In this document: piece after piece, positions 1,313-63,627 of the stretch
Position numbering within the stretch: position 1 is the stretch's first letter
Layout: every line of letters starts with the position of its first letter
DNA from: Hydractinia symbiolongicarpus
Lineage: Eukaryota; Cnidaria; Hydrozoa; Anthoathecata; Hydractiniidae
Direction of reading: 5' to 3'
DNA: 64,000 bases
Assembly: GCF_029227915.1 (NCBI RefSeq)
Contig: NC_079886.1
Span: forward strand, 6,944,001 to 7,008,000
Notes under the pieces: model-generated
The model's database searches: none
What the model was told of the DNA's origin: nothing
What the model saw: the letters and a program-made list of their open reading frames with translations, nothing else
Made by a program: the position numbers and the translations under genes

Positions 1313-3051
1313 ATGTTGCTTAGAATTTCGTTTACAATCTTTCTGTTAGTTCGTATCGACTTTATGGCATTCCATAAAAGTTTTAAAAGAATGCCAAATG
1401 TTCCAGAAACAAGTATTTTAGCCAGTGGACCGTTCATTAAACACGAATCGATTGAGAGCATGCAGCAGATTCAGCCTGCGAGATTTCTGTTTACAAAAAA
1501 GAATCGAACTATTTTCCTATGCAAGGTACCTTTTTTTTACCAGTTTTAAGCGTGATCTCTAGGCGTTGTGAGGTTTCTTTTTTCTTGTGCGTTGATTGCA
1601 GAAAGAATTTAAGTTAATTATTCAATTTCTGGGCGCTCTGCGAATTGGTTTGATTTTCAATTCCTATCCGTCCAGTATTTCTTGCAACTTTTGATAAAAC
1701 ATCCTAATCTACTAATTTTTATTTTTAACAATTAATTTTGTTTTTTAACCTATTTTTATTTTTCAAGGTGTTTTCTTGCGTTTAATTTTTTAAACACAAT
1801 TTTAAAAGAATTTAGCTATCTCTGTAAGTTGTTTTTGTGTCACTTTATATGCTTTGGAATGTCTTCTCAAACGCAGAAGGCTATGCCTCACTATGAAATA
1901 TATTGTCGCTCCTAAAAAAGATTTATGGGCATAAGCATTACAGGTGAGGAACAGCGATATAAATTTCTACCGCGTCAGATGTTCTTATTTATTTAAAGTT
2001 GTGGCGAATGAAGCAAGGCTAATAAAGCTTCATTCTAAATACCAAATTCAGTTCAAAACGCCTTGATAGATTACTCTAATAAATTAGTCGTCAATCCGTG
2101 AAAATCCACGGGTTCGCCCGTCCTTTATATGTGGTATTTTGTGTTTCCGTAGCAGACAGACAAACAGACAGACGATGGCTATAATTACAGAACCCAGTCG
2201 ATAGACCGTAAACAAAATCCACTGGTTCATCCGTCGTTATACATCATATTCCGTATTTCCGAAGCACGACCTTCTTCTTGCGCATTAACAAACAGACGGG
2301 ATCCACTATTATTAGAGTCTAGTCGTCAACACGCGAAAAAATCCACGGGGTTGCCCGTCCTTTATATGTCGCATTTTGTGTTCTCGTAACAGATAGACAA
2401 ACAGACAGACGGCTGCTTTATTATAGAGAAGTGTTGAAAACTTTTCCTCGCTTTTTATATTGCCTTTATTTCGGAAATTGGTAAAACCTCTGGGCTTATT
2501 GTTCTTACTTAAAAAGCACAGAGTTTGAATTAAAAAACCTTGACTGATGAGTAAAACAGACAATCAAAAAAAGAAATCGACATAATAAATCAAATTTCAC
2601 GATTAGCAAAAAAGTGTATCAGTTACCCATTGACTTAGGCTTTACAATCGCCAATTGTTAACGCGACAAAAGACTAAACTACCTGCTTTCTTTACTTCTA
2701 CAGGAATGCAATTTAAAGTTAAAAAAACTGATGAGCGTGGTGGAATCAAAATGGGGAAGCAAGTACTCTGTTGAAGTCTTAGAAGGATACGTTGGCATGA
2801 AGATGTCCTGCTTTTCAGAATTATCACTTCATTATGAGGGTAGAGCTTTAGATGTAAAGCTGGTCATAAATAATGCAACCAAGACATCATCTAGATTATG
2901 GAAAAACACGGCAAAGTATCAACTTTTACAACACCGGCTAGCTTTTTTTGCCTATCACAAAGCAGGATTTAATTTTGTTGAATTTAAACGAAAAAACCTG
3001 CATTTGTCCTGTAGAAGGGCGCTACAGGACTCAATTATTATGAGGAAATAA
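1313..3051 (+). CDS. Hedgehog N-terminal signal (Hedge) domain protein without Hint domain
   Basis: Two coding exons are modelled: 1313-1525 (71 codons) and 2704-3051 (115 codons plus stop), giving 186 aa. The donor is AAG|GTACC and the acceptor has a strong pyrimidine tract ending TTCTACAG; the intron is phase 0. Exon 1 has a hydrophobic leader, then PNVPETSILASG, matching the Hedgehog 'PNVxEKTLGASG' block. Exon 2 begins ECNLKLKKLMSVVESKWG, matching the Hedgehog RCKDKLNSLAISVMNQWPG region, and carries the diagnostic SLHYEGRALDV followed by LAFFAYHKAGFNFVEF and LHLSC. The length equals an N-domain precursor, and the stop falls 13 residues after the last Cys, where Hedgehog has the GG|CF cleavage junction, so no Hint domain follows. 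Known Hedgehog ligands are secreted morphogens of about 20 kDa. Here there is no CGPGR palmitoylation site, and a roughly 16-residue insertion follows RALDV. Intron 1 holds three Helitron-like elements. Alternatives: a fragment of a hedgling-type gene, or a decaying paralogue. The family call is firm; function is unknown. Confidence 0.85.
2084..2429 (-). mobile_element. Three Helitron-like mini-elements, head to tail
   Basis: Three adjacent copies (about 2084-2191, 2192-2318, 2319-2429) lie in the Hedge-gene intron. Read on the minus strand each starts TCTSTAATWATAGCC-like, contains a GCGMAATG/TATATAAAGGACGGGC segment, then a hairpin (CCCGTGGA / TCCACGGG type), then CTAA, CTGG or CTAG. A TC start, a near-terminal hairpin and a CTRR end are the established hallmarks of Helitron termini. 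No coding capacity. The middle copy is the most diverged. Confidence 0.65.
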
Positions 3052-6000: not shown

Positions 6001-6300
6001 GGACAGAAAAACGGCATCTTATTCGCAAAACTAAAATCTGAAATAGCATGCAAAAGAAGTACAACATTTGAAAGCTTTTGGAATTTTACAAAATGAATAA
6101 TAATAAACTAAAGAAATAATAAAAAATAAAAAAAAAAATAAATAAATAAATGATAAACTAAAACTAAAAGGCTTTCAAAAATTTAAAAAAATTAAAATTA
6201 ATTTAAATGATTTGATTTTATCGTTGCTTTAACGAGGACTGCAATGTATTACTTTGTAATCGTATTGCGCTTTGAACTCATTTTGTCCCTTTGTAATCTC

Positions 6301-6470
6301 CAACCTATCGCAGTTTGTAATCCTTTCATGATGCACTTTGTAATCTCCAACCTGTCACAGTTTGTAATCCTTTCATGATGCACTTTGTAATCTCCAACCT
6401 GTCACAGTTTGTAATCCTTTCATGATGCACTTTGTAATCCCTTGACCTGTCATACTTTGTAATCCCACCT
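6301..6470. repeat. Minisatellite, ~46 bp unit
   Basis: Near-identical tandem units of TTTGTAATCTCCAACCTGTC followed by ACAGTTTGTAATCCTTTCAT and GATGCAC, about three copies, form the left arm of the inverted-repeat element. The translated ORFs here are repeat shadows. Confidence 0.75.
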
Positions 6471-7319: not shown

Positions 7320-7520
7320 ATATCGGAGATTACAAAGTTTAATACGATGGGACCACAAATTGCAGCAGGTCGGAGATTACAAAGTTTAATACGATGGGAC
7401 CACAAATTGCAGCAGGTCGGAGATTACAAAGTTTAATACGATGGGACCACAAATTGCAGCAGGTCGGAGGATTACAAAGTTTAATACGATGGGACCACAA
7501 ATTGCAGCAGGTCAGAGATT
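7320..7520. repeat. Minisatellite, ~51 bp unit
   Basis: Four near-identical tandem units each contain CGGAGATTACAAAGTTTAAT, then ACGATGGGACCACAAATTGC and AGCAGGT. One unit has an extra G. More diverged GATTACAAAGTGCGA units continue to about 7735. Confidence 0.8.
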
Positions 7521-7837
7521 ACAAAGTGCGATATAAAAAGATTACACAATTGCAATATGTTTGCGATTGCAAAGTGCTACGGAATTTTTACGGGATGTGA
7601 CAAAGTGTGACAAGGTAGGGTTAAAAATTGGGATAGGCTGGCGATTACAAAGTGCGACAAAATGGGTTAAAAATTGCGACAGGATTACAAAGTGCGATGG
7701 GATTACTAAGTGTAACGGGATTACAAAGTGATACACTGCAAGGACTGTCAATGTGCTAATGTTCTCTTAAACCTTGTTGGCAATTCAAACTGAAAAAGTA
7801 CAATTGATATTTGCCTGAGCTGCGATTCCATTTTTTT

Positions 7838-8899
7838 TCACTTTATTGCAAGATTCGTATCAACTTCTCTACTATGTCGATAAGTGTTATGCTGGTTTGG
7901 CAAAGGTACGCCATTAGCAGGACTTACTCGATTTTGTCTCCTCTTTTGTTTTATGTGAAAACAGCAAAGTAGATGGTAAAAATGTTTGCGATATTTGCTG
8001 CTACTGGCTGCATATATGGGAGGATTTATTGCAGAATTAGCGTATGCCAGCAGCAGGGCTACTTTAATTACTGTTATTGGCACTAATGGCTCATAGTTGA
8101 TTGTCTCAATCAAATCAATCAACCCGATCGGTACCATACATACAGAATAAAATGCAACAATTATAAAAACTACCTTAGATAATCTTATTTCATGTGTTAT
8201 TCTTTTTATTTTTTGCACGACGATATTACTTTGGGAACTTCTTTTCCTGCGTGATAGATCTATGATGTTTGTGTTAGTGCTGGAACGTATTTTATTATGC
8301 CTGGACTTATAAATTACGATGAAGATTTTAACGTACATTGTTATCATAATAAGCCAAGGTACAGTTAAGCCACCAATTTCAATGAAAATCACGTACCCCG
8401 ATTTTAGCACCGTACTAAATGTGCATACTGTAATTCGGGTATCATTCACGCTGTCTTTTTCACCATATATGAAGAACGGAAATGTTCCGATAATTAAAGA
8501 TATAGTCCACGATGCAAATATTCCAACGACAAGGGTTGTTCGGGATTCAGTTCTCGCGCGATACTTTAAAGGATATACTGCTCCAAAAAATCGATCTATG
8601 GTGATTAACAGTAGGTTCATATTAGTTGACGTAAACAAAAACACAGTAAGTGCAACACTGATTTTGCAGTCGGACAAAGCAGAGAAAGTATCTGTCCTGA
8701 AGTATTGCGACATCCGGATTGGTAGGCTTACTGTTGTTATCAGCAGGTCTGAAATCGATAGATTGAAGATGAGAATGTTTGTGAAGCCACGTAGATTCTG
8801 ACTGATTAATGTTGCAAGTATTACCAAAGAATTTCCAATGACTGATACAGTCATGATGATGGTTAAGAAGGTGACTGAGGTTATTTCTTCGGCATTCAT
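7838..8899 (-). CDS. Class A (rhodopsin-like) G protein-coupled receptor, intronless
   Basis: Single-exon 353-aa frame with seven hydrophobic segments. Landmarks: GN in TM1 (residues 22-23), LxxxD in TM2 (D51), Cys78 at the top of TM3 and Cys159 in extracellular loop 2 as the probable disulfide, DRF (102-104) in place of DRY, Trp131 in TM4, and NPPIY (292-296) as the NPxxY motif. TM6 has CMVP (254-257) rather than CWxP, so the usual toggle tryptophan is missing. An N-glycosylation site (NDT, 152-154) lies in loop 2; Cys312-313 after TM7 suit palmitoylation. The third intracellular loop is basic. A plasma-membrane receptor coupling to G proteins is expected; amine, melatonin or adenosine-like orphan is possible and the ligand cannot be told from sequence. 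Cnidarian genomes commonly carry expanded intronless GPCR families of this type. ATG at 8899 is the first Met of the frame. Confidence 0.92.
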   Translation of the reverse strand: MNAEEITSVTFLTIIMTVSVIGNSLVILATLISQNLRGFTNILIFNLSISDLLITTVSLPIRMSQYFRTDTFSALSDCKISVALTVFLFTSTNMNLLLITIDRFFGAVYPLKYRARTESRTTLVVGIFASWTISLIIGTFPFFIYGEKDSVNDTRITVCTFSTVLKSGYVIFIEIGGLTVPWLIMITMYVKIFIVIYKSRHNKIRSSTNTNIIDLSRRKRSSQSNIVVQKIKRITHEIRLSKVVFIIVAFYSVCMVPIGLIDLIETINYEPLVPITVIKVALLLAYANSAINPPIYAASSSKYRKHFYHLLCCFHIKQKRRQNRVSPANGVPLPNQHNTYRHSREVDTNLAIK

Positions 8900-10116
8900 A
8901 TTGAGAAGGGCATACCAGTACTTTGCTAAAATAAATTAACTTTTCTAAATGATAAAAAATAAAATTTCATTTCACCTAAAATTGATTTCACTGTCTTTCT
9001 TTTCGACGGAATTTCTGTAAATGTGAAAATCCAGTCAGCCAGAGTGTTTACTCTGGTTCCATAGAGAGTGAATTCTCCAGTCAAAAGCGTCTCATCACCA
9101 ATAGTTCACTGTCTGGAAACTCTCTTTAAAAAAACAACGATAATTCCTAAAACTTAAGCATAAATAAAGATCTTTCACAAAATAACCCAACAAAATTATA
9201 TTTGTGTTACGTGAAACTTATACAATCTGTTTGTAGGGAATCTAATAAAAAAAACAACATTTCCATACAAAATTGCGAAACATATAGATGAAAACTGTAA
9301 TTTTCATTTACTCAATTTGAAAACCTGAACAAAAACTTGATAGATATCCTAATGATATAAGCAAACAGCATAATCGATATATATCTCCTTCTGTAACTCA
9401 ATTATAGAAATTTAAGTTTGTTTTTTACTGTATCATAGCAACAAGGAGATATAAATAAGACGAAAATAATTACGTGCAATTTCCAGCTATACCAAACCTA
9501 ATCAACTTTTGTGGACTTAACCGCGATTAAGTTGTTTGCGAAAATTCTTTAAATTGTTTCAAAATTCAAACGTTATTTATAATATAATCTCAGGATGCAG
9601 TCGAGGTTGTGGAGATGCTATTAGTGTTTTGCAGAATTTACGTAGACCAACTCAAGGTCATTTCATGAAAAAATCTTTATATATTAGATAAACTCTGTGA
9701 CAAAAGCATACATTTTTAGGCCTTCGTTAGGGAAAACACTTATAAATTTTACCTTTCAATAGCCTTTATTTACACTAACTAAAACACATTTTGACATAAT
9801 TCACTATTGTTTCGTATCTTAACACAATGTAAAAAGTCTATCTTTGTAACGCCGTCAGTCATTAAATAAAAACTTATTTAATGGTATGTGATAGGTTTCT
9901 TAATTTTAGCCTTTTTGATGGGACACTTCAAGATTTCATTGTCGCTCAAACCGTCAGTTATGTTGTAAATATTACACCTTATAATTTCGATTTTGTTGTT
10001 GTCAAAAGCAGGCTAACATTTAAGGGTATGCTGCTCGACCGACCTAATATCAGCTTAGACGTAATTACAGAAAAGTAATATTGTAGAAGAACTACTTTGT
10101 TCATAACTAACATACT
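8900..10116. other. Intergenic region upstream of the GPCR
   Basis: It should contain the GPCR promoter. A small hairpin, GCCAGAGTGTTTACTCTGGTT, lies near 9038-9058. The 65-codon frame at 9881-10078 has no recognisable motif. Nothing else stands out. Confidence 0.4.
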
Positions 10117-20987: not shown

Positions 20988-23064
20988 TTTTTTAATATTT
21001 CTTGTTGCATTGAAGAATTTAATATTTTCAATTATTGCTAGGAAGAAAAAATCCTCCTGAACTATAACTTAAAGACGTCGTTTATACTTTAGGACTGTCG
21101 GCTTAGAACATTCCTTACCAGGCCTCTTGGACATTTAATCACCATTGGTGTGTCTTTTATAAACTTAATTGCCGTAATTGAATAGATCAGAAATCTTTAG
21201 TTGTGTTCCTATAATAACGATAGCTACTTAACAAACAATAGAGCAACTTAATAATTGTTGTTGTTGTCTTAAATGAGAGTTGTTAAAAGTTATGTTGGAA
21301 AAGCACGGGCACTGCATGTAAGGAGCCAAATCGTCGAAAAAGTATAAAATTTAGATTATACTTGGGTGAGTAAAATCGGAAAAAGTTATGAAGTGTATTA
21401 CTGATAATTCTAAGGTCGCTGAAGAAACTTTTTAAAAAGCCCTTATAAAAGGATACCATTATTATGCGGAAAAGTTATAGAATATCATGGCATATAGAAT
21501 ATTAAATCTTCATTACGAACGCATTGGAAAGTTTTGAGTAGTATTTTTAATTCTAAACATTCCTGTTACAAGTCTTCATTTTTAGCCAAAAAGATTTAGT
21601 TAAATGGAAATATTTGAAACAAGATTTTAGCATTAATTAACAATTTTATACTTTGTAGAACATCAGCCAGGGCAGTATTTTCATTATTCACAAAAGTAAA
21701 ATCCAAAGAAGTAGCAACCTTTTTTTTTGCAATGCGAATGTTTGTGCCTCTGCTTTGTGTCTAGCAAATTATAATCTATTTAATTTCTCAAAGGGGATGA
21801 AATTTTGAAATTTTAATATCCTAGATTTAATAAATGCATTATTTGTACACATCGTTTTTTGTGGAAGTTTTACCAGCAGTAAGGTGCGAAAGAAAAAAAT
21901 CTATTCTTACGATTTTTTGATAAATCCAGACTCTTAGTTGTATTGTTCCTATAAGCTATGACAGACTCAGGCTAAGTACGTTTTTCATATGTTCTTGTTT
22001 GTTGACAAGATCAAGTCTCACATGTTCCTATAAACTACGTTTGTATCTGAATCTTGATGTAATTTTGCCGGGCTAGAAACTATAATTTGTTTATTTTTAT
22101 AACAAGCAAATATGGAAAGTTTCATTCTTTTTACTACAAAAAAAGTGTTACATTTTGTTGATCTGGTTAGAAAATATTTGAAAAAGTCTGCATTAATTTC
22201 TCCTTTATAGTCACAATATTTTTTCTTCCCTAAATCCCCTCCTCCATCCCCTCTTCCCTAAACCTCTCTCCAAGAAAGGTTAATATTTTAAGGAATAGGT
22301 CAAGGAATAGATAACATTTTCGTTCCATTTTTTACTTTAACAATTATCACTAAACAATAATAAACATTGCAACCAAAGTCTCATAAAGCAAAAACTCTAT
22401 ACATTGGTTGATTTTTATATTTTGGAAACTGAGCAACTGACGAGACTGTAAAAAATATCATAAAAAAATACACACGTGACAACCAACGCCCTTTTTATGA
22501 CTATATAATAGAAATCCACTCTCACAATTTTGTGAGAAGTAAAAAGAAGCAAGATATAACAAAGCCTATGTTAATTACAATAACTACAGCGCCTAATGTG
22601 TGATTAATTAGGAGATAAAATTTTGCTTCAATTTAAATTCTGAAAAATTAGGTTTTTAAATCAAATCAAAAAGATAATAAATTAAATGCAAAATTAACAA
22701 ATTATTCTGACCAGTTAAGCTATTCTTGACCCCAGGTCTCTTTGAGATTAACCTGAGCTATTTGAGATAAAGGTAATAACCTAAATTAGCTCTGGGATGA
22801 GAATGTATCTAAGCTTATATTTTTAAAAAATATCTTGAAAGGATTTTGATATAATAAGGATTTTGAAAATATATAAGTAGAAGCTTTTCGTTTTATTATA
22901 AAATCATCGTCAGTGCTTTATGTACAAGTAAAATTCGTTAAAAGGATTTATTTATAAAATGCAATGTCTGAGAATTTGCGTCAATTATCAGGAGAGTTTT
23001 ACGAATTCAATATACTTACAGATTAATGTACGTTTGTACTTTTCTATGTAAGTAGATTAAAGAA
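20988..23064. other. Intergenic region upstream of the transporter
   Basis: No gene recognised. The last few hundred bases should contain the transporter promoter and 5' UTR. Confidence 0.4.
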
Positions 23065-25179
23065 ATGGAAAAGAAAGAAGATAACGAACAAAACAGTAAA
23101 AAAGAGTGTGCGAGTGGGATGGACACACAAAATGGTAGTATTATGAATTGGGGGAGAATGCATTTGCAATCATTTTTATCTGTATTATCTTCCAAGGAAC
23201 TTGGTCCAGGAGAAGTTACAGCTATTGCGATGAGTTTGGTTTTTGGTAGCTTTGTAATTGTTCTACCATACACTGTCAATCTAGTTGGCTTACCGATATG
23301 GATAATAACCTTCATAGTTGTTATACTACTTGTGAGTTACTCGAATCACCTAATGAATGAATCCTGCTTGCGAATGCTCGAGGAATATAAGGGAGAGGAA
23401 TTCGTACGAGCACCACAGATGAAAATTGCAAAATTGGCCGGTGGGAATGCTTTTCAAAAGCTTGTTGTTGGAGCGCTATACACGAATTTTGCATTTTTTG
23501 CTATATCCTTAATTTTGGTTGCATCCACAGTACTTGGTGAAATAGTTTCGGTACCTGGAATATCTGAGATAAACAGCGTGAGATGTTGGGTTGTAATTTC
23601 CACAGTGTGCATTTTCCCTCTTGTACAGCTTGGATTTTACAAGGACTTAAAGCAGAGTGCCTTTATTGCTCTGACAACTTCATACATGGCTTTGCTAGTC
23701 ATTCTTTGTACGAGTGCTTACATATTGTTAATAGGTAAAATACCTACTGAAAGTGACAGCAAATATATTCACCCTTATCCTGGAAATGTTTTCAGAGTAT
23801 TTGGTACCGTATTTTATGCTGTTGGAGGCATTACAGTGACGACTCCTGAAATAATTGTTTTTGCAAATGAGCCAAAGAAAATGGACCAGAGTATTTTTGT
23901 CGCATACACCATGTTGACAGTCATTTATATGGGGTACAGTATCATAATGTATGGAGTATTTCGAGGAAGTATGAAGCCAACGACAACTGCCACTTTGCTG
24001 CAAGCTATTGAATTGAATGGAAACGCAGCAATCCCCAGAACGTGTATCTTTATTGTCCAGTTGGGAATAAGTCTGCATTTTATGTTAGCAGCTGTTCTGT
24101 TTTTAAATCCTTTATTTACAAATATAGAATCAAACTTCAAAATGCCTGTAGGTAAGATTACTAGCTATATACCTTAAGGGAACTAATTTTCGCGAGCATG
24201 CAATATTTTGTACATTTCGTAATATTTATTGTCCGCTAAATGTTGATGGAAAGTTATTACGCAAAATTAAATTCCCTCGAAATTATACTCGCAATTCGCG
24301 AAAATATATAATTCACCATTGCCTATTGAAAAGTAAGGTTGTTACAAAAAAAATGTTTGTTTGATATAAATATAAATGTTTTGAAAAACATTGACTTTCA
24401 TGGGTTTCCATCAGATAGCAAAAATAACTCATCGCAATTTAATTCTCATCTGTTCAGTACGTTAAAATAAATTTTCGCAAAAATTCGTTTCCTTTAAGAT
24501 AGTATATTGATATCTATTTGTAACCTGAAGAGTTATCGAATGAGTGATAGATTTTTCTAATTACAGTTTTTGTGTTGGTCGCTGAAATAAACCTTATCTC
24601 GTGTAAACGTAACAGTAATGGAAAGAATCTCTTTAATAATAGCCGTATTCCGTGTGTCTGTGCGCAAAAAAAGTCGTGTTACAGAAACACGAAGTGCGAT
24701 ATATAAAGGGCGGGCGAACCCGTGGATTTATTCACGGGCTACCGACTAGTCTATATTATAATGCCTGTATGCGTCTGTCTGTTAGTCACGCAAAATAGTA
24801 ACCGCGTAGCGAGACACACGAAATGCGGTAAATGAAGGATTTATCCAACGGGCCACCAACTAGTCCATTTCATTTTTATCCTTCATTCTATTTAGAGTTT
24901 ACCTGGAAAAGATTTGTTCTTCGATCTTGTGTACTTCTGGCTGTTACAACTGTGTGTCTACTTCTACCCAACTTTCAATCCGTCGTTTCTTTAATGGGCG
25001 GTACAGTGTTGGTTCTTTCTTCAACAATCCTTCCCATTATTATGTATGCAAGGCTCCACGAGTTAACTACATCGAAAAAGATATTTTTGTTTTTTGCTTG
25101 CTTATTTGCTGCTGTCTGTATGGTTGGAAATTTTGTCGTGTCGACTCAAGATATGGTCAATGGAGTTGCGTTGTCATAA
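23065..25179 (+). CDS. Aa_trans-family amino acid transporter (SLC32/36/38-like)
   Basis: Two coding exons: 23065-24151 and 24896-25179, joined by a phase 1 intron (GTAG|GTAAG; CTATTTAG|AG), giving 456 aa. The cytosolic N-terminus (about 50 aa) is hydrophilic. TM1 begins after LGPGEVTAIAMSLVFGSFVI and carries the LPYTV block typical of the family. About ten to eleven hydrophobic segments follow, including YTNFAFFAISLILVAST, GTVFYAVGGITVTTPEI, FIVQLGISLHFMLAAVLFL and, from exon 2, two final TM helices with MGGTVLVLSSTILPIIMY. Length and topology fit the auxin/amino-acid permease superfamily, which moves amino acids with H+ or Na+ across plasma or vesicular membranes. Substrate cannot be assigned. 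Exon 2 was needed because exon 1 alone runs into an intronic stop about nine codons past the donor. Confidence 0.88.
24172..24499. mobile_element. ~330 bp MITE in the transporter intron
   Basis: Imperfect terminal inverted repeats: CTTAAGGGAACTAATTTTCG at the left and the complement of CTTAAAGGAAACGAATTTTT at the right, both continuing GCGA-like. The left end starts 20 bp past the donor. No ORF. Confidence 0.6.
24628..24863 (+). mobile_element. Two Helitron-like mini-elements, head to tail
   Basis: Copies at 24628-24749 and 24750-24863. The first runs A|TCTCTTTAATAATAGCC to the hairpin CCCGTGGATTTATTCACGGG, a 7-nt spacer and CTAG|T. The second starts immediately with TCTATATTATAATGCC and ends CCACCAACTAG|T, 32 bp before the exon 2 acceptor of the transporter. 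Confidence 0.75.
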
Positions 25180-57366: not shown

Positions 57367-58280
57367 ATAAACGTTTCAATCGCGAGCTTTCAACCATGAA
57401 TGATAGGCTGTATTTTTTGTTAGCAATTTCTTTTAAAATGTGAGTTTATTATGACACGTTTCGTTTTGTTTGCGTTTGTAATTAGATATAATGTCACTTG
57501 TGTGCTTTATCTTCAGAGCTTCATGCCATAAACCTCTTCAAATGTTTGGAATGATAACACAACAAATTAGCAGGTTGTCATCAAATATTTTGGTAGCGAG
57601 CGGAAATTCTTAGAGCCCCCAGGGCTTCTTGTTAAAGATACAACACAACTATAGAAAAAGCGCCTGTGCAAAACGAGAAGGTTAAAAAAGAGAAGTGCTT
57701 GACTGGCCGTAAATTTCACTAACCGCCTCTAAGACACGTGAACATTAAACAAAATCATTCCAGGTTTCTCTAAATTAAAATTATGGTCCGAGTTAAGGCG
57801 ATGTTTTTAACAGGTGGTGCGATTTTTGGCGCAATTTTAGCCAAAACTAAAAACTATGTGCTCCAGGGCTGATAATAAACGTTAAAGTTGTACACTAAAG
57901 ATAAATGAGCAGTGTACAGAGGCAAATGAATATGTTACTTCATATTATTTAGCTAAATGACGTATAAAAAACGTGGTAGGATATGCCATATAAAAAAGCC
58001 ATAAACCAATGCGCATAAATAAGGAATGTATAGAAATATGTGTTAACTCCGTTGGGAAGGTTAAAATTAAAACGATTTATCTCGGGCGTGAACACGAAAC
58101 ACTTCTTCTTACATGCAATATGACAACCACAATACGCATATTAAAAAAAATATCAATGGTATGCGAGAACATGAATGGTTATTCAACTGCGAAAAATCTA
58201 AGTTTAAATCTTCTGGCAATGAAAATCTTAGAACAAGACTTCAAGATATTTTGTGGGACAAGCTAAAGATTATATGCATA
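57367..58280. other. Region upstream of the first receptor module
   Basis: No separate gene. The open frame of the first receptor exon extends upstream to a Met at 58113, but those residues are hydrophilic and not receptor-like, so this is treated as 5' UTR. Confidence 0.4.
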
Positions 58281-60072
58281 ATGATAATTTACAAGTTGTT
58301 GGTTGCTTATCACATCACCAATTTTGTCTATTCTTTGTCTCGCCTTAGAATAAGTGTGTTGTTAGACCAACAAAACGTAAATGTGGGGTCACGCTTACAA
58401 ATGCAATGCGCATGCGTGCTAGTTAATCACAATGTTGGTTCCATCATGAAAGAGTATGGATATTACATAGAATTTGGTTTTGCTACAGCGAAACGCAACT
58501 CCATCCTTACAATTCAACAAGCAACTAAATTAGTATACAAAAAAAACACTAAGGCGATAATTGGACCATCATGCCAAAACTTGTGTTTATCTGTCGGTTA
58601 CTTGGCAACATACGCAAACATGCCAGTTCTGTCGTATGGTTGCTCGAGTGCCTTGTTATCTCGGAAAGACAAATTTCCAACCTTTGCGAGAACTAGACCA
58701 TGGACAAGATTTGTGCCAGAATGCATAGGTAATATTATTGTTTATGGACGTCGCGGTATGCAATTATTGAATTGATTTTTTGCTTAAAATTGGAGATTTT
58801 AATTCTCATAAGAAGAGAAATCAATGGACACTTTCCAAATTTTATTTATTTCCTTTGGGCTTTTTAAGAAACTTTGACAAAAAACAGATAAAATCTACAA
58901 ATTCCTAACTAAAAAATGATAAATTGTAGAATTTTTAAAATCATACTGCAAATAAACAACGTCCTGCAACAATCTCTATAATTATAGCCGTGTGTGCGCG
59001 AGAAATAAGTCGTGCTACGGAAACACGAAATGTGACATATAAAAACGGGCGAACCCGCTGATTTATCCACGAGCTACAGCCTAGTTTATTTAATTAAGCT
59101 ATATCTGATCCTTGTTTGAAAGTGAGGCTCGTAACATGAAGAAGCGTTTGACAATAATTATGTCACAAAAAGCAGGACTGCCGGAAAATCAAACGAGTTT
59201 AAAATGTACACGCCCGCAAATCAGAAATTTAAGAAAACATGAATTTCGGGAAGTGTCTGTTTGTATGTGTAAAAACATTTGAAGCTATTAAATTGAAAAC
59301 TTTTATATTCGTCGTGGGCAGATTGACTACCCTATCCATAATAGTTGATGTCTGTATTTTCTCTACAATTGAAAGATCCATATTGTACCCTTTGTTTACA
59401 CGGGGAATTGGGTTTCCTGTCTATACCTTGTGAACAGTAAGGAAATTTAATTTTTTAAGTTTGTATTTTCCTGGTTGCCAAAGAATACAAGATGCTTATT
59501 TCAACTTTAATTACTGTTCTTAAAAAGTCTGATTTGTGGTAGAGGTTTTGCTTCATGTGTGGAAGGTCATGGGTTCAATCCTCCAATTCCCTGGTCATCT
59601 TCGCCTATAAGACTGTAAATTGTGTCAAGCATTTAACAAGAGAATGCATTATACATCAGGCGGTTGGTTAATTTAACTGTTGCGGATGGTGTAGCTCAAA
59701 TGATAGCTTTAAATTTACTAAGAGCCCCTCCTTTTGTTAAAAACACTGACATTAAAAACTAAACACCTTACCCTAAAAATGCTTTAGATATTCGAAAGAA
59801 TTACCCAGACGTAGAAAAATATAAATAGCTGATGGGGACATAATAAAAGAACAAATCTTTTATTTTAGCAAAACTGATCAAAACAGCACTTCGGCGATGT
59901 GGTTGGAACAGGCTCAGTGTTGTCTATACCCGTGAGGAAGCATGGGTGAAACTGTTCGATAAAATCATGGCATTACTTCAGTTTGATAACAAAACAACCA
60001 TTAAACCTGTTATGAACATTGACAATATAGAAAAGAGGGAAATTGTGAAAACAATCAAATCACATTCTAGAG
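58281..60072 (+). CDS. Receptor guanylyl cyclase-type ligand-binding module, copy 1 (partial)
   Basis: Two exons are modelled: 58281-58728 and 59869-60072, both ending in phase 1 (ATAG|GTAATA, TTTTAG|CA, AGAG|GTAGGG). The start MIIYKLLVAYHITNFVYS is a plausible signal peptide and aligns with the signal of copy 2; the frame also has a Met at 58113. The domain is the ANF_receptor (type I periplasmic-binding) fold: AIIGPSCQNLCLSVGYLATY, MPVLSYGCSSALLS, FPTFARTRPW, then GWNRLSVVYTREEAWVKLF and ...TIKSHSRG. FPTFART-like motifs are characteristic of receptor guanylyl cyclase ectodomains. No counterpart of the next exon (VILF...) occurs before copy 2 begins, so it is either a truncated duplicate or an alternative first module. 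Its intron 1 (58729-59868) holds a Helitron-like element and a SINE-like piece. Confidence 0.75.
58973..59084 (+). mobile_element. Helitron-like mini-element in receptor intron
   Basis: A|TCTCTATAATTATAGCCGTG at the start; a decayed hairpin (CCCGCTGATTTATCCACGAG) and CCTAG|T at the end; 112 bp; body block GCTACGGAAACACGAAATG. Confidence 0.7.
59528..59680 (+). repeat. Possible tRNA-derived SINE
   Basis: GATTTGTGGTAGAGGTTTTG resembles an A-box and GGGTTCAATCC a B-box at tRNA-like spacing, followed by an unrelated body. No tail is clear. Weaker than the copy at 20467. Confidence 0.4.
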
Positions 60073-60079
60073 GTAGGGC

Positions 60080-60428
60080 TTCTTTTTCTTCTTCTTCTTC
60101 TTCTTCTTCTTCTTCTTCTTCTTCTTCTTCTTCTTCTTCTCCTTCTTCTTCTTCTTCTTCTTCTTCTTCTTCTTCTTCTTCTTCTTCTTCTTCTTCTTCT
60201 TCTTCTTCTTCTTCTTCTTCTTCTTCTTCTTCTTCTTCTTCTTCTTCTTCTTCTTCTTCTTCTTCTTCTTCTTCTTCTTCTTCTTCTTCTTCTTCTTCTT
60301 CTTCTTCTTCTTCTTCTTCTTCTTCTTCTTCTTCTTCTTCTTCTTCTTCTTCTTCTTCTTCTTCTTCTTCTTCTTCTTCTTCTTCTTCTTCTTCTTCTTC
60401 TTCTTCTTCTTCTTCTTCTTCTTCTTCA
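60080..60428. repeat. (TTC)n microsatellite, ~114 units, at a splice donor
   Basis: About 345 bp of TTC/CTT with one CTCC interruption near 60141. It begins about eight bases after the AGAG|GTAGGG donor of receptor copy 1. The long poly-Ser frame is therefore judged intronic: copy 2 ends its homologous exon at the same SRG| position. Confidence 0.95.
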
Positions 60429-60735
60429 TCTTAGTAGCTTTCCCGCGTAAATTAATTCATTCAGGTAAACTCTTTATAACTGTACATTTCGGACGTTCAA
60501 CTATTATAGCACATGTTCAGTTTATAGCTAGCAACCCGTTCCGCTTGAGTCTCTTGAATAGAGTTTTCTCAATTGTGTATTTTTGTAACCACGGCACTCT
60601 TTTTTGAAACGTACACAAATACTGAATCAATTCTATGGCTCTGAAAAATTGATTTATTCGATATGTTTTACAAGCAAAATTGCCTTGATAAAGTATTAAT
60701 TGACGATAAAAGTGTGAAAGCTATATACACGCAAA

Positions 60736-63627
60736 ATGAAGATTCTGCTGGTTCTTAATATTATCACTTTCAGTATAGCAAAGTTACCGCTAAGGCCATT
60801 AAAGATAGGGTGTTTACTTCAAAAATCTGATAGTCTTTATAAATATGAGTTTTTACGAGCCAGCATTGCTCTGGCTAAAAATAACTTAAATCATATTGTT
60901 GAGGAATTTGGGTACAATATAGAATACGTTGTTGAAGACAGTGGATGTAATGAAATAATGGCGTCCGGAGCTGCAGGACATTTAATATACGTAAAGAAGG
61001 TTCACGTATTAATAGGACCGTCATGCAGTGTAGGCTGTGTTCCTATTGGTTATTTAGTCGCATCTAATAATAGACCAATTATATCATATAGTTGCTCAAG
61101 TGCAATATTATCAATCAAATCAAACTACCCTACCTTTGCCCGTACTCGGCCATTTGCAAGAGTACTGAATGGGGTACTGGCTTGGTATTTAAGAGAAACC
61201 ATGCAAGAATTTAAGTGGAAGCACTTAGGTATAGTCTATTCGTCGTCGGATGTTTGGTCGAGTACGTTTGAGAAAATTGTTAACGTAATAAGGCGTCTTA
61301 ACTCTACACAAATTGACCCCACATACTCACTTGAATCGATGAGCGATAGACGTGAAAGTATGAAAGAGTTGAAGAAGAAATCAAGAGGTATGCTAGTATA
61401 ATTGACGTGCTGTAGTACCATTATTATTAAAATAGGCAAACTATAGAACCCTCTCCCTTCCACAAAGCGACTGCGTTGGTTTGCGAGCTAAAAAATGGCT
61501 TCAATACAAGTTAATTTTGAATAAGGCATGAAGTCATTGGGGACATTTCGTTTAATCAACGTTAAAAAGACGTCGTCAGTGACGTTGACCGTCACTGACG
61601 ACGTCACATTAACGTTGAATAAACAGAAAGTGCTGCTGGGTTCAGCTTCCAGCGACAAGCGACGAAACAGTTATCATATCGGTACAGCAACAAAGAAAGA
61701 TCTCTTCCTGCCTCGAAAATATAAAGCATAATATAAAATCAGCTAAACATTTTTGAGAGTGGAGGGCACGTTCTTAGCACAGCAAGCAGGGGCGAATTTA
61801 ATGTCAAGCTGAATAAAGCCAAGGCAGTTCCTGCTTTTCTATATAGATACTAATAAGCACATATTAAGATCTGTAATTCACTATTGAAATAAAATTAATT
61901 TTTTATTCACTATAAATCTTTAATTAACTTTTATCAATTACACTATACATAAGGGGAGGTTCGCACTTGCATAGTTAAAGCATAATTTAAAGCAAGGTTA
62001 CTAGTGTGGGTGCTGTTAAAACTTAACACAATTTAAGAAAAGTAATTTGCCTGTAACGATACACTAAGAAGCGAGGTGCAGCAAGGTGTTTTTTCTCAAT
62101 GATTTTTTTTTTAATTATGTTTCATTTTAAGAAAAACAAGAAAATATAATATCGTGTCCTCGTCCTTTTAAAACAAATTCGCAAACTGAACTTTAATGTG
62201 TTTTCCAGCCATCCTTTGACACTAGTTATCGAAGTCTCCCATTCAGGCAAAACCTTATTTTGCTTTTACAGTGAAACGAAATTTAACCTTCCCCTCAAAA
62301 AAATAAAATTGTTTTCAATGGCATGTTTTATCTAATTTATTTACATCCACCATCTGGATGGATCCAAAAAAGTGCCATATTCATGCGTAAGAAGTTTCTA
62401 GAAAGTCAGGTTGCGATGACATAAGAAGTAAAAACTCTTAGGGTAAATAATTAATATCACTGTTTTATTTCAAAAATGGTAAACTTTTAAAAACTGATTT
62501 ACACCACTTAGACAATGACTGCTTCAGTAAAACTAATACCTCATAGAAAAATTCAAAGAGCGGATTGGTGTGATTTAACCCTATTTGGTCCAGGGTTTTT
62601 TGAACATACTATGACCGGAGGGGGGGATGCGGACTCCGCCCCCTCCCCCGGACCGAATAGGGTTAAGATAAAACAGTAGAAACTTAAATGAAAGAAATAG
62701 CAGAGCTTGGGATAAGGTTAGGATTATACAAATCACATTGTACAATCTAAGCATATTTGAGTAAGAATCCTTTTATCTCATTGGTGTGCTGCATGTGGTC
62801 TATATAGATGTAGAAAAATGCATAGCAGATCTTGTATTTTAAATTTTTATAGATAAGATGTATATACAATAGAAAAGGAATCACAATTTTGGAAGCTGCC
62901 ATTGGAACGCTGTTGTTTAATTTTGTTCGGGAATTATTTTAATATGTTTTTTAGAGAATTATCAATTCACCATAAGCAGTATTTAAATAAGAAATATAAC
63001 GACGTCATAAGAAAATTGCTGATGTCAGCACTATTTAAATATTAATAATTTTCATTTATATTACTTGTTCCTATCCAATCAAAGAACCATTTCAAGAGTT
63101 TTTTTTAAGGGTCATTTGATGGCACAAAAGTAACGCAAAAATAGGGCGAAAAATAAAAGAAATTTTGGATTTAAAGGAAAAAGAATACACTGTTTATTTC
63201 TCCCTGCGACAAATCGGAATTTGCTCGTCTACACTTGGCTATCAAATGCGCCATAGAGTTCGTTATCGTTTAAAGTTGTCTTCATAGTTGAAAAGTTTAT
63301 TGTAGAAACTTGCTTTTTATGTTGTGTTGCATCTTTTTAGTTATCCTTTTCGTCTGTTATCAAATCGATGTTGCTGAAATGTTGTCATACGCGCACGAGT
63401 TGGGAATGTATAATGGAGAATATGCATTTATCACAATCGACTTCCATATTAAAGATAAATGGAAGTTAGAGCCATGGTTCAAAACAGACGAAATATTCCC
63501 GGGAATACTCAATGTGGGTGTGATGAACGGAAGGGGGGCACTTGGACCTGGTAAATTTGCAGAATACTGGAGAAACTTGAGTATCATAGCTAAGGAAGAG
63601 TATAGCTATGACATGGCTAATGAAACG
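60736..63627 (+). CDS. Receptor guanylyl cyclase-type receptor, copy 2 (5' part, runs off window)
   Basis: Exons 60736-61387 and 63341-63627 join in phase 1 (AGAG|GTATGC; CTTTTTAG|TT). MKILLVLNIITFSIA is a signal peptide. The ANF_receptor domain then shows KIGCLLQKSDSLYKYEF, HVLIGPSCSVGCVPIGYL, IISYSCSSAILS, YPTFARTRPFARV, FKWKHLGIVYSSSDVWSS, KKKSRG, and from exon 2 VILFVCYQIDVAEMLSYAHE and LGMYNGEYAFITIDF. This covers lobe I and the hinge-proximal part of lobe II. In natriuretic-type receptors the ectodomain is followed by one TM helix, a kinase-homology domain and a guanylyl cyclase domain; none lies in the window, so catalytic identity is inferred. The donor ACG|GTGAGA at 63627 leads to an exon beyond the edge. 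A clearance-type or other ANF_receptor protein remains possible. Confidence 0.85.
61540..61634. other. Long near-perfect palindrome in receptor intron
   Basis: Core arms GACGTCGTCAGTGACG (61569-61584) and CGTCACTGACGACGTC (61590-61605) are exact complements around a TTGAC loop. Outer arms TCAACGTTAA (61556-61565) and TTAACGTTGA (61609-61618) are also exact, with symmetric 3-base spacers. Weaker pairing extends roughly 15 bases further on each side. It could be a foldback transposon or a cruciform-forming site; it contains TGACG/CGTCA CRE half-sites. Confidence 0.9.
62575..62666. mobile_element. 92 bp MITE flanked by TTAA
   Basis: The terminal inverted repeats are TTAACCCTATTTGGTCCAGG and the complement of TTAACCCTATTCGGTCCGGG. 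The core has GGACTCCGCCCCCTCCC. Fragments of the same family occur at 18093-18166 and about 14112-14130. TTAA ends suggest piggyBac-like mobilisation, which is inference. Confidence 0.7.

Follow-up and report, generated by a model that had tools for sequence, protein, structure and literature searches.

What kind of gene encodes a Hedgehog (Hh) signal domain and then ends where a Hint domain would be expected? Hint is the module that attaches cholesterol to Hh. Hh ligands normally bear two lipids, cholesterol and palmitate, at opposite ends (PMC11036296, available text). We examined this question for a gene in a 64,000-nucleotide stretch of the Hydractinia symbiolongicarpus genome (C12:6944001-7008000, hereafter the window), in which a Hedge domain is followed closely by a stop codon. 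The gene belongs to a Hedge-only family, which we hold with high confidence to consist of partial copies of the hedgehog gene (hh) along one chromosome.

Structure of the window gene and its product

The original prediction was a two-exon gene for a 186-aa protein with the Hedgehog hallmark SLHYEGRALDV, and this model stands. The exons lie on the + strand with GT/AG borders (donor AAG/GTACCT, acceptor TTCTACAG/GAA), and translation of the joined exons gives a 186-aa product. It matches Pfam HH_signal (PF01085) over residues 25-172 with an E-value of 1.9e-11 and 44.4 bits, twice the cut-off of 22.1. All of the 23 PDB sequences matching it (E-value up to 1) are hedgehog proteins, the best being Indian hedgehog (3k7h_B, E-value = 1.7e-4). 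The features of the gene, in window positions, are:

1313..1525 (+): exon 1, coding for residues 1-71, which comprise a hydrophobic N-terminus and the beginning of the Hedge domain (translation, GT donor at 1526, exon-1 homologs in paralog regions)
1313..1369 (+): putative signal peptide, residues 1-19, hydrophobic (read by eye, cleavage site not evident; paralogs have hydrophobic N-termini, by eye)
1502..1510 (+): NRT, an N-glycosylation sequon (N64), in a loop that holds calcium ligands in SHH and is shortened here (alignment)
1526..2703 (+): phase-0 intron of 1178 bp, its position common to all ten intact copies and intron 1 of normal hh
2704..3051 (+): exon 2, remainder of the Hedge domain and stop TAA at 3049-3051 (translation, Pfam match)
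2707..2709 (+): cysteine C73, aligned with SHH C102 (alignment)
2824..2853 (+): SLHYEGRALD, residues 112-121, with zinc ligands H114 and D121 and the first M15/Hedge motif SxHxxGxAxD (alignment)
3001..3012 (+): HLSC, holding H171 as third zinc ligand and C174 as last Hedge cysteine (alignment; HxSC as in hydrozoan-type Hh, HIHC in SHH)
3013..3051 (+): 12-residue tail RRALQDSIIMRK and stop, corresponding to the hh stretch that runs to the exon-2 donor and the Hint exon

The Hedge cysteines and the zinc triad are retained. Residues matching the SHH zinc ligands H140, D147 and H182 are present in all ten intact copies of the family by alignment. A loss of the third ligand in the window gene was considered and rejected, the alignment setting H171 on SHH H182. 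The motif SxHxxGxAxD, named as such in PMC3610138, is found in eight of the ten intact copies including the window gene, and a sequon stands at the place of N64 in eight of ten as well. Of the six SHH calcium ligands, which we take to be E89, E90, D95, E126, D129 and D131, one is kept in the window protein; six hydrozoan-type Hh sequences keep none or one.

Both known lipidation routes lack their sequence determinants. The alignment exhibits a gap at SHH C24-G27, the CGPGR palmitoylation site, in all ten intact copies, and the window protein has no cysteine before C70. It also has no cleavage site of the G/CF type, its frame ending 12 residues past C174 (not 13, as originally counted). No Hint exon follows exon 2, and the single Hint match found genome-wide lies elsewhere. 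Since the Hedge domain is without Hint, autocleavage site and CGPGR, the sequence supports the view that the known routes could not add either of the Hh lipids to this protein; the earlier claims that these elements are missing and that cholesterol could not be added by autoprocessing are thus borne out. From the C174 codon to the stop no GT occurs, the one nearby GT being inside the C174 codon itself (TGTAGA); we regard the stop codon as genuine.

The Hedge-only family and its relation to normal hedgehog

The genome (76 contigs, 480.9 Mb) exhibits one Hint match, at C12:19837092-19837691 on the minus strand (E-value = 4.1e-41). Two exons upstream of it complete a normal hh (C12:19839606-19837065, minus strand), 12.9 Mb from the window gene, with 411 codons including the stop and with CGPGR, PDVNEQSILASGPF, HIHVSCRR, HR/CF and Hint. 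The spliced sequence is identical over its whole length to the NCBI entry "protein hedgehog-like [Hydractinia symbiolongicarpus]" (P0004), which supports our splicing approach. In this normal hh, Asn replaces the zinc-binding Asp, and HR/CF replaces GG/CF. It shares with the window gene the signal domain, intron 1 (phase 0, at the same position as the intron of the family), the exon-1 sequence SILASGPF, HxSC and the chromosome, whereas CGPGR, the phase-1 intron 2, HR/CF and the Hint exon are found in the normal hh only. Its intron 2 lies seven codons and one base past the last Hedge cysteine; all intact Hedge-only genes but the window gene end before the point matching the end of hh exon 2. 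In these nine genes the stop comes 2-5 codons after the last Hedge cysteine, in the window gene 12 codons after it.

A six-frame HH_signal search of the genome returned nine matches, namely two exons of one gene on C14 and seven places on C12; the C12 places all share a two-exon layout whose intron agrees in codon position and phase. When the genome was searched with a degenerate DNA pattern for SILASGPF, 13 places came up, all on C12 (0 for the reversed control); these are the normal hh and 12 Hedge-only loci. As the PF01085 search had missed five of these loci and the normal hh (recovered by the exon-1 pattern and the Hint search, respectively), 12 is taken as a lower bound, the pattern itself being blind to copies without SILASGPF. 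Ten loci have intact frames: the window gene and those at 18.131, 18.235, 19.215, 19.226, 19.232, 19.977, 19.987, 23.131 and 24.929 Mb. Frame changes or stops disrupt the remaining two, at 24.936 and 24.944 Mb. With the intact 24.929 Mb copy these form a tandem array of three (C12:24.929-24.944 Mb), spaced at about 7-8 kb; exon-1 relics lie near the 24.929 Mb copy on the other strand, and the array has the look of a place where copies arise and decay. Chromosome 2 of Podocoryna americana is reported to be syntenic with chromosome 12 of Hydractinia (PMC13119343).

Close pairs, where compared, remain similar in DNA sequence past the exons. Together with the intron kept in all intact copies, this means that the copies came about through DNA duplication and not through reverse transcription. 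No paralog in the genome comes close to the window gene (39-44% identity, synonymous sites near saturation). A separate record, P0002, is 87% identical to the window protein over 101 residues of exon 2, with the frame open to SCRRA, where the end may be a stop or the end of the 955-base contig. Nine other intact copies of the same structure on C12 and the identity with P0002 show that the window gene is not a product of chance. A profile of seven family members, searched against 5.8 billion proteins, matched only P0001, P0002 and the bacterial-type P0003; of the seven intact genes in the profile, only one is thus represented there by a protein record. P0001 is the NCBI model of one copy (locus L014:6352-7041) and also ends shortly past the last Hedge cysteine. 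It starts at an inner Met, and the genomic frame has a hydrophobic start further upstream, so that the signal peptide is probably missing from the annotated protein. Single-sequence folding of P0001 gave no usable model (predicted local distance difference test, pLDDT, of 33). No description of a Hydractinia Hedge-only family was found among the literature matches listed, in a search that left supplements and most subscription papers outside, and the word "hedgehog" has 0 occurrences in the searched Hydractinia papers and a Podocoryna preprint.

A phylogenetic analysis of 21 Hedge domains, with a single hedgling sequence and with hedgling, P0004 and P0005 flagged as long branches, places the Hedge-only genes and P0002 in one group (support 100/98). 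This group joins the hydrozoan-type Hh sequences (100/99), apart from human SHH, fly Hh, bacterial-type Hedge and hedgling. The tree called for in the original prediction, with Hh and hedgling included, thus sets the family with hydrozoan-type Hh and not with hedgling. In topology tests, for which the groups were chosen after seeing the tree and in which several branches are long, a position of the family next to hedgling was rejected (approximately unbiased test, p-AU = 0.0008), as was one next to the bacterial sequence (p-AU = 0.0003). The grouping of the family with normal hh has a support of 63/78, or 39/35 without hedgling. Neither a single clade of hydrozoan Hh (p = 0.227) nor a grouping of the family with P0005, a Clytia-type sequence (p = 0.373), was rejected. 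An origin of the family before the split from the P0005 lineage and one after it would both be compatible with these tests.

Other characters agree with this placement. The HxSC arrangement, in which the last cysteine stands two residues later than in SHH, is common to the family and P0004-P0009, and SILASGPF is shared with P0004 alone among the aligned sequences. Bona-fide hh genes with Hint are known from Nematostella and Acropora, according to the available text of PMC2362128. On the strength of the tree, the topology tests, these shared characters and the Nematostella and Acropora genes just cited, the Hint-less state of the family is best read as derived, and the Hedge-only genes as copies of hh exons 1-2 with the Hint exon 3 left out. 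The C14 gene is a hedgling; by eye, its Hedge exons lead into exons for VWA, many cadherin, Ig, EGF and transmembrane parts. It resembles the window gene in having Hedge without Hint, but it is a giant adhesion protein, present once and without the Hedge cysteines by alignment, whereas the frame of the window gene stops after Hedge, and the two genes are not closely related. Of the suggestion that the locus bears on how Hedge and Hint were joined or separated, the part on separation holds and the part on joining does not, a full hh being present on C12 and a hedgling on C14.

Possible modes of action

The explanation that we favour for the family as a whole is that lineage-specific copies of hh exons 1-2 act as unlipidated Hedge proteins in the Hh system; we advance it tentatively, as somewhat short of an even chance. 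Its mode of action taken alone, an extracellular tuning of the Hh system, we consider possible but less than probable. In this proposal, hh exons 1 and 2, without the Hint exon 3, were copied along one hydrozoan chromosome into a lineage-specific multigene family. The product would enter the secretory pathway, form one disulphide and bind zinc, and would leave the cell as a soluble Hedge domain, often N-glycosylated and bearing neither cholesterol nor palmitate. As a diffusible extracellular binder with a Hedge fold it might occupy or buffer Patched, co-receptors or matrix, and the lipidated Hh from the parent gene would thereby be tuned.

Parts of the Hh system are present, as indicated by a Patched-1-like exon (E-value = 3e-10 to Patched homolog 1) and a Dispatched gene (E-value = 5e-80). 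The Patched-family search gave 12 rows; by eye, seven are PTCHD-like and two NPC1-like, the others being the Patched-1 exon, Dispatched and one unassigned match on C9. PTCHD-like genes, also assigned by eye, occur in addition to Patched on C5, C7, C12 and C15. The zinc site of Hh doubles as a binding surface, and the best structure matches include HHIP complexes. The gonophore gastrodermis expresses a Hydractinia hedgehog transcript whose annotation includes a Hint module (PMC4072882, available text); given the single Hint match in the genome, we infer that this transcript comes from the normal hh.

Several points weigh against this proposal. In fly wings, HhN C85S, a monomer without lipids, failed to inhibit Hh, as far as the available text of PMC5844694 reports. 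This result speaks against a Hedge protein of that kind being a simple antagonist, and it bears on the free ligand or antagonist put forward in the original prediction. Agonism is disfavoured by the finding that depalmitoylated Shh signals only with its N-terminal peptide (PMC11036296, same portion as above), a peptide that the family lacks. With five of the six SHH calcium ligands absent from the window protein, calcium-dependent Hh contacts are unlikely, although the hydrozoan-type Hh sequences are as poor in these ligands. The ExxH glutamate, three residues ahead of the third zinc ligand, occurs in nine of ten copies and fits an enzyme better. Finally, the window gene is in none of the four pairs on which selection was estimated (below).

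The fly and Shh results give more weight to another reading, in which the lipid-free Hedge copies went back to a secreted, M15-like zinc enzyme (H/D/H with a new ExxH Glu) and the window member lost the Glu. We consider it unlikely, though the best placed of the alternatives. ExxH is its main clue. Bacterial Hh/DD-peptidases and M15 zinc peptidases (VanX, VanY) resemble the family in fold and zinc triad, and most family members have ExxH; unlike VanX and VanY, the family has an Hh-type sequence and a eukaryotic gene structure. However, neither the window gene nor P0002 has the Glu (the nine other copies do), and the zinc may be structural only. Pfam M15 does not match the window protein up to an E-value of 1, matches P0001 below the cut-off, and has no match up to 0.1 in the five other copies scanned. 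We know of no substrate. The more specific form of this reading, in which copies with a rebuilt full M15-type zinc site would be secreted peptidases acting, for example, on bacterial wall peptides or matrix, the window gene having later lost its Glu, appears a shade less likely still. The action in the Hh system is ranked first because the window gene lacks the Glu and the Hh zinc site is also a binding surface.

Alternatively, the window gene may be an unexpressed, functionless by-product of segmental duplication, which we judge improbable to about the same degree as the specific peptidase form. Two of the 12 loci are broken, exon-1 relics lie near 24.93 Mb, and the profile search gave a protein record for one of the ten intact genes (seven of them in the profile). 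Such decay is at odds with ten intact frames having a conserved core. Moreover, the tested family pairs are under purifying selection: the Nei-Gojobori ratios of nonsynonymous to synonymous substitution (dN/dS) in four pairs, none including the window gene, are 0.39, 0.44, 0.43 and 0.15, with bootstrap 95% intervals of 0.23-0.71, 0.26-0.77, 0.28-0.65 and 0.12-0.30, all below 1; in the fourth pair, where saturation affects the synonymous sites, dS was fixed at the ceiling of 3. For the window gene itself, the evidence suggestive of constraint is P0002, 87% identical with an open frame.

It is very improbable that the gene model is an artefact, the true transcript skipping the stop and joining a downstream exon. 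The GT within the C174 codon would offer a donor, but none follows it up to the stop, and several copies have TGC at this codon. All ten intact copies stop 2-12 codons past the last cysteine, as does the NCBI model P0001. Splicing into Hint, cadherin or VWA exons, named in the original prediction as the outcome that would overturn it, finds no support in the sequence, the sole Hint exon being in hh. An ancestral Hedge-only or hedgling-type gene predating the joining of Hedge and Hint, although Hedge without Hint is also the state of hedgling (PMC2362128, available text), is scarcely credible, being rejected by the tree and topology tests under the models used and contradicted by the intron, SILASGPF and HxSC common to the family and normal hh, as well as by the VWA-like and cadherin-like exons (by eye) and missing cysteines of the C14 hedgling.

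Other genes of the window and significance of the family

Elsewhere the window exhibits a single-exon rhodopsin-type G protein-coupled receptor (7841-8935, minus strand; PF00001, E-value = 5.7e-45) with 47-bp tandem repeats nearby (6289-6465 and 7323-7527), and an amino acid transporter (Aa_trans) of at least two exons (23056-24174 and 24832-25176, + strand). Two ANF_receptor-type ligand-binding exons (58092-58772 and 60718-61398, + strand) are separated by a region with a long serine-coding microsatellite near 60063-60430. Outside this genome region, the protein P0010 combines PF07648 and PF00050, presumably both Kazal-type, with a Hint domain, a further case of Hint shuffling.

In the nematode warthog and ground-like families, according to the available text of PMC1636047, N-terminal domains with predicted signal peptides have been multiplied without Hint, as in the Hydractinia family; these domains are not Hedge, however, and C. 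elegans lacks a bona-fide Hh pathway. The Hydractinia genes show a separation of Hedge and Hint through partial gene duplication, parallel to the nematode families that consist of the N-terminal domain only. They may also allow a test of whether the Hh zinc site can be catalytic. A naturally multiplied Hedge family without Hint and CGPGR, beside an intact hh in the genome of a laboratory animal, makes lipid-free Hedge function testable.
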